From the NCBI GenBank assembly GCA_021776055.1, contig JAJFGP010000053.1:1-42053 (forward strand): 42,053 nt of DNA, in the 5' to 3' direction. Source of the DNA: Kiloniellaceae bacterium. Its GTDB lineage: Bacteria; Pseudomonadota; Alphaproteobacteria; Kiloniellales; J153. Each line of letters starts with the position of its first letter. The first letter of the stretch is position 1. The notes below the pieces were generated by a model. It was given only the letters and a program-made list of their open reading frames with translations, had not been told where the DNA came from and made no database searches. A program made the position numbers and the translations under genes. Shown piece by piece: positions 12,527-15,841 of this stretch.

Positions 12527-13603
12527 ATGATGAGCGCATCCGCACCCTCGGACAAAACCGAACACGGCCGCTTTTTCGAGGATTTTGGCCTCGGCGAGAC
12601 TCTGATCCACGCGACACCGCGCACGGTGACCGCTGGTGACCAGGCGCTTTACATCGCCTTGACCGGCTCGCGCTTTGCCCTGCACAGCGCCGATACATTT
12701 GCGCAAAGCTTGGGATTGCCGCACGCACCGGTCGACGATGTGTTGGTTTTTCACCTGGTCTTCGGCAAGACGGTGCCGGATGTCTCACTCAATGCCGTGG
12801 CGAATTTGGGTTACGCCGCTTGCGTTTTCGGTGTGCCGGTCTATGCCGGCGATACCTTGAGCGCCGTCAGCAAGGTCATCGGCCTGAAGGAAAACTCGAA
12901 CCGCAAGACCGGCGTGGTCACCGTGCAAACCACGGGCGTCAATCAACGTGGTGAGACGGTGCTCGATTACATCCGTTGGGTGATGGTCAACAAGCGTGAC
13001 CCGGCAACGCCCAGCCCGTCCCCGGAAACGCCGGATCTACCTGAATCCGTCGCGGCGGCGGACCTAGTGATTCCCGCTGGTCTCGACTTATCGGCCTATG
13101 ACTGCACTCTGGCCGGCTCGCCGCATCTTTGGGACGACTATGCGGTGGGCGAGCGCATCGACCACGTGGACGGCATGACCATCGAGGAGGCGGAGCACCA
13201 AATGGCCACCCGCCTTTACCAGAACACGGCCAAGGTGCATTTCAACCAGCAGGCCGCCGCGGCCGGCCGCTTCGGGCGGCGTATCGTCTACGGCGGACAT
13301 GTGATTTCGCTCGCCCGGTCGCTCAGCTTCAACGGTCTGGGTAACGGTTTCCGCATCGCCGCCATCAACGGCGGCCGCCACGTTGCCCCCTGCTTTGCCG
13401 GCGATACGGTCTATGCCTGGTCCGAGGTGCGCGACAAGATGGCCCTGCCCGGCCGCACCGACGTGGGCGCCCTGCGTCTGCGCACACTGGCGGCAAAAGA
13501 ACGACCGGCAAGCGGCTTCCCCGCCGCCGGCGATGACGGAGCCAAGGCAGACCCGGCGCTGATCCTCGATCTCGACTACACAGTCCTGATGCCGCGCCAC
13601 TAG
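12527..13603 (+). CDS. mch: Mesaconyl-CoA hydratase (MaoC-like, double hot-dog)
   Basis: Mesaconyl-CoA hydratase adds water to mesaconyl-C1-CoA to give beta-methylmalyl-CoA in the ethylmalonyl-CoA pathway. The N-terminal hot-dog has GRFFEDFGLGETLIHATPRTVT, an LGLPHAPVDDVLVFHLVFGKTVPDVSLNAVANLGYA block and GLKENSNRKTGVVTVQTTGVNQRGETVLDYIRWVMV. The second hot-dog (from about residue 200) has LWDDYAVGERIDH, AKVHFN and GRRIVYGGHVISLARSL with the hydratase histidine. At 358 residues it agrees with Rhodobacter Mch. Start: ATGATG at 12527/12530 follows GGGGG and lies 10 bp after the mcl-like stop. A frame extension upstream to 12356 overlaps that gene and is not credible. The two form an operon. Confidence 0.9.
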   Translation: MMSASAPSDKTEHGRFFEDFGLGETLIHATPRTVTAGDQALYIALTGSRFALHSADTFAQSLGLPHAPVDDVLVFHLVFGKTVPDVSLNAVANLGYAACVFGVPVYAGDTLSAVSKVIGLKENSNRKTGVVTVQTTGVNQRGETVLDYIRWVMVNKRDPATPSPSPETPDLPESVAAADLVIPAGLDLSAYDCTLAGSPHLWDDYAVGERIDHVDGMTIEEAEHQMATRLYQNTAKVHFNQQAAAAGRFGRRIVYGGHVISLARSLSFNGLGNGFRIAAINGGRHVAPCFAGDTVYAWSEVRDKMALPGRTDVGALRLRTLAAKERPASGFPAAGDDGAKADPALILDLDYTVLMPRH

Positions 13604-13632
13604 ACCTAATCCAATTTAACTCCATCCCCGTC

Positions 13633-13697
13633 ATCCCGGACGTTAGGCGAGCCCGAGAACCGTAGGTTTTCGGTGCGTGAGCCTTACGATCCGGGAT
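13633..13697. repeat. REP-like palindromic element
   Basis: ATCCCGGACGTTAGGC (13633-13648) pairs with GCCTTACGATCCGGGAT (13681-13697) with one bulge and one mismatch. Inside it CCGAGAACC (13653-13661) pairs with GGTTTTCGG (13665-13673) over GTA. The flanking GTCATCCCGGA and ATCCGGGATCCA words are typical of dispersed extragenic palindromes in alphaproteobacteria, as I recall them. Only one copy is in this window. Confidence 0.6.
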
Positions 13698-13942
13698 CCA
13701 TCTGTCCGCCGCCGCGACCGGTTCGACATGGATACCGGATAGCTCGTGTCGCCAACCAAATCCCATGGATTTGGGACGACTCGGCTTCCGGCAGGACAGA
13801 TTAAATGTCGGTTCAGTTTAGTCCTCTTTGCCGTTGCTGCCGCTGCCATAGCCGTTATGGCTGATTCTCGATATTGCCGCCAAGGCACCTACAATCACCG
13901 AGGTCAGCAGGTTCTCAAGCGCCTAGAGGTTTTAGAAGATCG

Positions 13943-13994
13943 TTGACTAAGTCAATCATTTTTTTGATGTTGTCAAATGAAGTCTTGATTTCAA
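13943..13994. promoter_or_regulatory. Three phased TTGA/TCAA inverted repeats (candidate MarR operators)
   Basis: TTGAC-TAA-GTCAA (13943-13955), TTGA-N5-TCAA (13964-13976) and TTGA-TT-TCAA (13985-13994). The left arms begin at 13943, 13964 and 13985, exactly 21 bp apart, about two helical turns, so all would face one side of the DNA. The last lies 15 bp before ATG 14010. The first resembles known MarR-family palindromes, and the gene downstream is itself MarR-like, suggesting autoregulation. Confidence 0.6.
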
Positions 13995-14009
13995 CGGGCG
14001 GGTGACGCC

Positions 14010-14939
14010 ATGGCCACCACAGAATTCGACCAACGGGTCTCCGATGTGCGCGCCTTTAACCGGTTCTATACCAGGCAAATGGGCTTGTTGCGGGATGGCC
14101 TGCTGAAGAGTTCGTTCTCTCTTACCGAGGCGCGAGTACTCTATGAGCTGGCGCATCGTAACTCACCGATCGCTACCGAAATTGCCACGGACCTCGGGCT
14201 CGATGCCGGTTATCTCAGCCGCATCCTGCGGCGTTTTTCGCAGTGTGGTCTGGTCAAGAAATCGCGCTCGCACACGGACGGCCGGCAAAGCCATCTCTCG
14301 CTCACCAAGAAGGGGCACCAGGCCTTTGGCGCTCTAAATCGCGCCTCGCGTGGCGAGGTGGGGGCGATCGTCGCTGCCCTGGATCCGGGCGAGCAGAGCC
14401 GGATGACCGCTGCTATGGAGACGATTCAGCGCCTGTTGGCGCCCGGCCCGGTAACGTCGGAACCGTTTGTGCTGCGTCCGCACCGAATTGGCGATATGGG
14501 CTGGGTCGTGCATCGTCAGGCCGTTCTGTATGCCCAGGAATACGATTGGGATGCGCGCTTCGAGGGGCTCGTTGCCGGCGTCGCTGCGCAGTTCATCGAG
14601 ACGTTCGATGCGCGGTACGAATGCTGCTGGATCGCGGAACGGCACGGCGAAATTGTCGGTTCGGTCTTCGTCGTTCGGATTTCGAAGACGGAGGCGCGGC
14701 TGCGCATGCTTTACGTCGAACCCGCCGCTCGAGGATTGGGAGTCGGCCGGCGGCTTGTCGAGGAGGCCATCCGTTTTGCTCGGGACCGGCGCTATCGCAC
14801 GCTGAGACTTTGGACCAACGACAATTTGGTCACGGCCCGCCACATCTACGAAGCTGCCGGGTTTCATCTGGTCGAAGAAGAACCGCATCATAGTTTCGGG
14901 CACGATCTGGTCGGCCAAACCTGGGATCTGAACTTGTGA
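14010..14939 (+). CDS. MarR-type regulator fused to GNAT N-acetyltransferase
   Basis: The N-terminal half (about residues 1-145) is a MarR winged helix: FNRFYTRQMGLL, SLTEARVLYELAH, IATEIATDLGLDAGYLSRILRRF as recognition helix, and a wing with SHTDGRQSHLSLTKKG. The C-terminal half (about 150-309) is a GNAT domain beginning FVLRPHRIGDMGWVVHRQAVLYAQEY, with the acetyl-CoA pyrophosphate loop RGLGVGRRLVEEA and the closing ARHIYEAAGFHLVEEE. Such MarR-GNAT fusions are a recognised architecture, but the acetylated substrate is unknown. The gene overlaps the EamA transporter gene by 4 nt (GTGA), implying co-expression. Three phased palindromes lie just upstream. A natural reading is a detoxifying acetyltransferase and efflux pump under self-control. 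Confidence 0.88.
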   Translation: MATTEFDQRVSDVRAFNRFYTRQMGLLRDGLLKSSFSLTEARVLYELAHRNSPIATEIATDLGLDAGYLSRILRRFSQCGLVKKSRSHTDGRQSHLSLTKKGHQAFGALNRASRGEVGAIVAALDPGEQSRMTAAMETIQRLLAPGPVTSEPFVLRPHRIGDMGWVVHRQAVLYAQEYDWDARFEGLVAGVAAQFIETFDARYECCWIAERHGEIVGSVFVVRISKTEARLRMLYVEPAARGLGVGRRLVEEAIRFARDRRYRTLRLWTNDNLVTARHIYEAAGFHLVEEEPHHSFGHDLVGQTWDLNL

Positions 14940-15841
14940 TCGCCGCACGCCCCATCTGGGCGATGGCCGCGGCGGCGGCAACGGGCATTCAGGTGGGCGC
15001 GACGATCGTCGCCACGCGCTTTGTCATCGACCAAACCGATCCGGTATCGCTGGCCCTCTTGCGGTATGCCATCGGCTTCTGTTGCTTGTTGCCGCTGGCG
15101 ATGACGGCGGGGCGGTGGCGCATCGAGCGTCGGGATCTTCTGCCGGTAGCGCTTCTCGGTATTACCCAGTTTGGCATATTGATAATCTTGCTGAATTACG
15201 GCGTGCAATTCATCCCCTCCGCTCAGGTGGCGATGATATTTGCCACCTTTCCTCTTCTGACAATGTTGATCGCGGCGGGCCTTGGGCGCGAATCCCTGAC
15301 CGTGCGAAAGGCCGCGGGCGTGCTTCTAACGATCCTCGGTGTCGGGGTCGCCTTGGGCGGCGATCTGAATGGCACCGCGGGGTCTGCCGGTGGCTGGATC
15401 GGTCCTGCCGCGGTGTTCGCCGCAGCACTTTGCGGGGCTGTCTGCAGCGTTTTCTACCGGCCGTACTTGCGCAAGTATCCGGCACTTCCCGTGAGCGCCT
15501 TTGCCATGTTTGCGTCCGTGCTGTTCCTCGGTGCGCTGGCCGCCGGCGAGGGGTTCTTTGTGCACTGGCCACGCTTTACCGGGGATGGCTGGGCGGCGGT
15601 TATCTTCATCGGTATAAGCAGCGGTGTCGCCTTTTTCCTATGGCTTTGGGCGCTCGCCAACATTTCCCCGACCCGCGTGACCGTGTTTCTGTCTCTCGGA
15701 CCGATCACGGCTGCGGTCTTGGGCGCCATGTTTCTCGGTGAGGAGCCCTCGGTGCTGATCGTGGTGGGCCTGGTCTGCGTCGTGCTTGGCCTGTGGTTGG
15801 CGCTGCGTTCAACGGATGAGAAATTCGCCTCATCTGGATAG
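14936..15841 (+). CDS. EamA/DMT-family transporter
   Basis: This 301-residue polytopic protein has about ten hydrophobic helices arranged as two EamA repeats (about 1-135 and 150-295), the signature of the drug/metabolite transporter superfamily. The first repeat includes ATIVATRFVIDQTDPVSLALLRYAIGF, where the conserved R-x2-I/F in helix 2 is visible. The second has VAFFLWLWALANISPTRVTVFLSLGPITAAVLGAMFLGEEPSVL, the classic PV/GE-like end motif. The GTG start overlaps the MarR-GNAT stop. The substrate is unknown; context suggests export of a toxic small molecule or its acetylated form. Confidence 0.88.
   Translation: MIAARPIWAMAAAAATGIQVGATIVATRFVIDQTDPVSLALLRYAIGFCCLLPLAMTAGRWRIERRDLLPVALLGITQFGILIILLNYGVQFIPSAQVAMIFATFPLLTMLIAAGLGRESLTVRKAAGVLLTILGVGVALGGDLNGTAGSAGGWIGPAAVFAAALCGAVCSVFYRPYLRKYPALPVSAFAMFASVLFLGALAAGEGFFVHWPRFTGDGWAAVIFIGISSGVAFFLWLWALANISPTRVTVFLSLGPITAAVLGAMFLGEEPSVLIVVGLVCVVLGLWLALRSTDEKFASSG

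Follow-up and report, generated by a model that had tools for sequence, protein, structure and literature searches.

A predicted two-site operator with conserved 21-bp spacing upstream of a MarR-GNAT fusion gene in a Kiloniellaceae bacterium

In the genome of a Kiloniellaceae bacterium, a 406-bp gap between two genes ends, just before an ATG at position 14010, in three repeats of the type TTGA...TCAA. The gap occupies positions 13604–14009 of the window, by which we mean the whole 42,053-nt contig that was analysed (JAJFGP010000053.1 of assembly GCA_021776055.1), and the gene upstream of it, whose stop codon ends at 13603, encodes MaoC / mesaconyl-CoA hydratase domains. The locus raises the question of which of these repeats belong together, and which protein they serve. 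The original prediction was that all three are phased at exactly 21 bp and form a MarR-type operator of the downstream gene. The left arms TTGA do begin at 13943, 13964 and 13985 and the start codon does follow 15 bp after the third repeat, as it stated, and the MarR domain that it read in the downstream product is confirmed by a match to PF01047 (5.1e-10, 39.5 bits, cut-off 24.6). The features of the locus are:

13943–13955, + strand: predicted operator site 1, TTGACTAAGTCAA, with perfect 5-bp arms and its dyad at 13949
13964–13976, + strand: predicted operator site 2, TTGATGTTGTCAA, with its dyad at 13970
13985–13994, + strand: third repeat, TTGATTTCAA, a shorter palindrome with a different spacer and the doubtful part of the array
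14010–14939, + strand: MarR-GNAT fusion gene, 309 aa, the inferred binder of the operator
14936–15841, + strand: EamA-family transporter gene, start codon GTG

The MarR-GNAT product has its MarR domain at residues 37–93 and its GNAT domain at residues 195–285, and each of the 15 matching sequences of solved structures covers just one of the two parts, MarR or GNAT. As the start codon of the EamA gene overlaps the stop codon of the MarR-GNAT gene by 4 bases, the two genes are probably carried on one transcript. Neither this overlap nor the promoter-like hexamers described below figured in the original prediction. Two further repeats are found within the 406-bp gap. At 13631–13700, GTCATCCCGGAC ... 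GATCCGGGATCC look like the arms of a dispersed intergenic repeat, and a similar element with the arms closer together is present at two other places in the genome. An imperfect 20-nt direct repeat (70% identity) is formed by 13727–13746 and 13764–13783, 37 bp apart.

Sites 1 and 2 share the 13-bp form TTGA-N5-TCAA with dyads 21 bp apart, site 2 being the less symmetric of the two. The third repeat has the 10-bp form TTGA-N2-TCAA with its dyad at 13989.5, and while its left arm lies 21 bp beyond that of site 2, its dyad is only 19.5 bp further on. Exact phasing at 21 bp is thus a property of sites 1 and 2, and does not extend to the third repeat. Three left arms at 21-bp steps (spacer 0–8) were found in 0 of 5000 shuffles of the gap, and a third TTGA-N(0–8)-TCAA at exactly +42 in 6 of 20,000 when the 33-nt tail was shuffled. 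The latter test was devised once the site was already known, and by its figure the third repeat may exceed chance in this single genome. The TTGATTTCAA palindrome is absent from the congener L002, whose protein is 80% identical. When position +42 is read in the 13-bp frame, the window and L002 each hold four of the six TTG/CAA letters, and no row with a pair in our first set of orthologues (described below) exceeds four. We therefore reject the third repeat as a full operator, given its different form and its lack of conservation in the first set. A three-site phased array is rejected as well, as a conserved third site of like form and phase was not found in that set and the spacers differ (2 against 5). 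What stands of the predicted MarR-type operator is its first two sites, for which the comparative sets and their uniqueness in the genome speak.

Site 1 is the single occurrence of TTGACNNNGTCAA in the 3.72-Mb genome, and sites 1 and 2 together are the single occurrence of the loose two-box pattern TTG-N7-CAA-N8-TTG-N7-CAA. Conservation of the pair was followed in two sets of orthologous loci. The first set comprised 59 close orthologues (at least 44% identity) drawn from 98 relatives and from the GTDB contig collection: a batch of 30 loci contributed 12, with 9 distant homologues kept apart and 9 partial matches excluded, and a batch of 63 contributed 47, with 16 excluded as partial, mostly GNAT-only. 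A pair was scored when two 13-mers each held at least five of the six TTG/CAA letters and one of them held at least seven of eight once the two inner pairs were added; clusters were formed at 75% identity. With this criterion frozen, a second set of 54 new loci, all of them used, was taken from draws over the phylum and the class, from which 17 listed matches without a locus were left out. Seven of its rows are at least 75% identical to a first-set row, and the other 47, in 34 clusters, are less than 75% identical to every first-set row. The criterion is strict, in that loci L010 and L107, which carry a 21-bp pair by eye, are one or two letters too many off and were scored as having none.

In the first set, a pair at exactly 21 bp was present in 28 of 59 rows, with three pairs at 20 bp, three at other distances, a single site in 10 rows and none in 15. 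Counted by cluster, the 21-bp spacing was found in 13 of 27, every other offset being held by at most two clusters, whereas shuffled sequences (n = 300) gave a mean of 0.017 at 21 bp and a maximum of 1 at any offset. When each cluster was anchored on its best site, the second site lay at +21 in 10 of 23 anchored clusters, at −21 in three and at +20 in three; shuffles of the downstream part gave a mean of 0.108 at +21 by the same method, and no offset above 3. The second set repeated this picture: 23 of 54 rows carried the pair at 21 bp, eight carried it at other distances, 17 had one site and six none. Among its new clusters, 12 of 34 had the 21-bp spacing, followed by 22 bp with three clusters, against a shuffled mean of 0.017 at 21 bp (maximum 1 at 21 bp, 2 at any offset). 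Two like sites at a fixed, helix-phased spacing thus recur in both sets with a few pairs at 20 or 22 bp, and a palindromic site in the promoter region of the gene itself is conserved before its orthologues, with the exception of the 15 and 6 rows in which none was recognisable. The congener L002 keeps both sites, the second as TTGATGATGTCAA, at 67 bp from the start codon as in the window. Orthologues preceded by the sites are spread over the alpha-, beta- and gammaproteobacteria and include one from a Chloroflexota MAG (L041). We regard the 21-bp distance as a conserved feature of these predicted operators, though many orthologues show one site or none. The proposed check, that related genomes keep the 21-bp phase, comes out in favor of the prediction as regards two sites, for which 21 bp is the dominant distance in both sets. 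The outcome that would have spoken against it, orthologues with one site and no fixed spacing, describes the one-site rows (10 of 59 and 17 of 54) and not the family as a whole.

None of the 9 distant homologues (L013, L015–L019 and L021–L023; 24–30% identity) has a 21-bp pair. These mostly show a single TTGYATNNNRCAA-type palindrome, flanked by sequences like ATAG...CTAT, and the best palindrome starts 53–62 bases before the match in 8 of the 9. Among the 11 loci L103–L113, the exact arrangement TTGCCAAAGTCAA-N8-TTGACAATGGCAA occurs in four and is one letter off in five more; in this layout the whole 34-bp operator is near-palindromic, with unlike half-sites. The idea of a fixed relation of one site to the other, mirror or direct, was rejected for the family as a whole, the 51 rows being 27 mirror-like, 15 direct and 9 equal.

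Several explanations other than a two-site operator can be offered for this arrangement. It could be that the palindromes arose by chance, as an AT-rich stretch favors TTGA and TCAA words. However, dinucleotide shuffling of the 406-bp gap (n = 5000) gave TTGACNNNGTCAA in two shuffles and the 21-bp TTGA-N5-TCAA pair in none, and for the last 75 nt, again with 5000 shuffles, the counts were one and none; this, together with the recurrence of the pair before orthologues, by which chance is contradicted, leaves the explanation with a negligible probability. A more serious possibility, which we still regard as unlikely, is that only site 1 is an operator and that the 21 bp are a by-product of promoter geometry, since a −35 element TTGAC and a −10 element (TT)GATAAT with a 17-bp spacer would place TTG words 21 bp apart. 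The first six bases of site 1 (13943–13948) do form a −35-like hexamer, TTGACT, and GATGTT at 13966–13971 within site 2 lies at the −10 position 17 bp after it, as a weak match of three of six letters to TATAAT. These hexamers were judged by consensus only, and a strict scan gave a promoter-like pair further upstream, at 13868–13895, and none at the operator. In 22 rows near the protein of the window, the left arm of site 1 reads as a −35 and, after a 17-bp spacer, that of site 2 contributes to a −10, in overlaps such as TTGATAAT and TTGATGAT. At least 8 of 12 letters match in this register in 19 of the 22, with a mean of 8.23 against a grand mean of 3.36, a match that is partly built in as the sites begin with TTG and TTGA. 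In Mesorhizobium, furthermore, site 2 usually retains its left arm TTGAT but has a poor right arm. Such a double role of the left arms may account for site 2 being the less symmetric copy. A −10 element has no need of right arms, yet those of site 2 are conserved in many rows, including the window (TTGATGTTGTCAA) and its congener (TTGATGATGTCAA). In addition, a beta/gammaproteobacterial clade of 13 rows (support 100/99, the bootstrap being incompletely settled) has its best register elsewhere: the −35 lies nine bases before site 1, and the −10 falls within the linker that separates the two sites; with an 18-bp spacer, this register matches at least 8 of 12 letters in 10 of 13 rows. The 21-bp pair is nevertheless present by our criterion in 12 of the 13, all 12 being mirror-like. 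As the register is shifted and the pair is kept, promoter geometry alone fails to explain the 21 bp; between clades, the spacing of the predicted sites is constant and their place on the putative promoter varies.

It could also be that both sites serve a regulator other than the MarR-GNAT protein, given that palindromes like these are bound by several families of regulators. The sites are, however, unique in the genome, and they recur before orthologues of one gene while the neighboring genes differ, which makes this explanation highly improbable. In 113 loci, reaching 1.5 to 3 kb past the gene and in some cases cut by contig ends, a pair was accompanied by an EamA homologue in 18 and occurred without one in 33, EamA occurred without a pair in 29, and neither was found in 33. 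Thus, the pairs appear to follow the MarR-GNAT gene rather than its neighbor, and the recurrence of the sites before this one gene points to the MarR-GNAT protein itself as their binder. We compared the recognition-helix residues with letter 4 of the operator, and the smallest p-values were 0.010 (residue 74) and 0.015 (residue 75), which are not significant after correction for 164 tests (9 versus 15 clusters, relatedness uncontrolled), so that a link of letter 4 to residues 74–75 is suggestive only. As for other targets in the genome, the single-site pattern with up to two mismatches gave 49 forward matches, including one single-mismatch case (C49), compared to 42 for the reversed control. 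Allowing up to three mismatches in the tighter two-box pattern brought up one other place, at three mismatches. Nothing here points to a larger group of two-site targets in this genome, and scattered single sites are indistinguishable from chance. The notion that the two-box pattern is equally specific in other genomes was rejected, as its forward matches numbered 78, spread over 38 of the 98 genomes, against 15 for the control; five of the 78 precede an orthologue (G000, G001, G006, G007 and G060).

What is observed directly is that the two sites exist, that they are unique in the genome and that their spacing is conserved before orthologues, and as predicted operator sites we find them convincing. 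We consider it likely that 13943–13976 is an autoregulatory operator of the MarR-GNAT gene that is bound by two MarR-type dimers, overlaps the promoter and acts in repression. The binding protein, the position of the promoter, repression, cooperativity and an inducer are inferred from the anatomy of the locus and from the known behavior of MarR proteins, on which the mechanism leans. In this mechanism, two dimers would sit on the two 13-bp palindromes with their centers 21 bp apart, which is about two helical turns, so that both would occupy one side of the helix and would probably touch. As the left arms also read as a −35 (site 1) and as part of a −10 (site 2), both here and in the nearer relatives, bound dimers would cover the putative promoter, and both the MarR-GNAT gene and the overlapping EamA gene would be repressed. 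Release of the repressor would be brought about by a ligand, for which substrates of the acetyltransferase half or of the transporter are plausible candidates.

MarR proteins that repress their own genes from palindromic operators overlapping the promoter are well known, as exemplified by E. coli MarR at marO, S. aureus MepR and OhrR, and some have more than one site per operator. The locus described here resembles these three in its short palindromes and in the winged-helix MarR gene directly downstream, and differs from them in the GNAT fusion and in the 21-bp two-site spacing over many genera. QacR, of the TetR family, is reported to bind one operator as a cooperative pair of dimers, a likeness to the two dimers predicted here in a different protein family. 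According to the available part of a study on Rv2887, a MarR-family protein of M. tuberculosis, this protein protects a 27-bp stretch, and its chains A/B and C/D each bend a duplex stretch, one palindromic and one not (PMC5526998). As described there, its site is GC-rich with little sequence conservation, and the protein is without a fused enzyme, whereas the operator predicted here consists of two sites of similar sequence at a fixed spacing. A direct precedent for tandem MarR operators was not found in the literature searched, including the available parts of PMC8053128 and PMC5526998, nor was a study on a MarR-GNAT fusion, as judged by titles and the beginnings of abstracts. Operators of MarR autorepressors are thus already known as a kind, and the putative operator described here appears to be a new member of it.

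Of 398 genomes drawn over the phylum, 35 held a match to the MarR-GNAT protein at E up to 1e-60, as did 41 of 385 drawn over the class. In one genome (G537, contig C43, 37225–39190) two MarR-GNAT genes lie side by side on the same strand. As a tentative idea, which we hold to be possible but rather doubtful, the MarR-GNAT fusions could form a distinct class, with a constant 21-bp two-dimer operator, at least two promoter registers, the acetyltransferase as sensor and an operon that is derepressed. The substrate of the acetyltransferase, or acetylation itself, would then break the two-dimer complex, and the operon thus opened could include an exporter of the same compound. The comparison between clades suggests that the operator layout is tied to the protein rather than to the promoter. 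As MarR-GNAT fusions are widespread, the predicted two-dimer operator may provide a handle for finding their targets and ligands.
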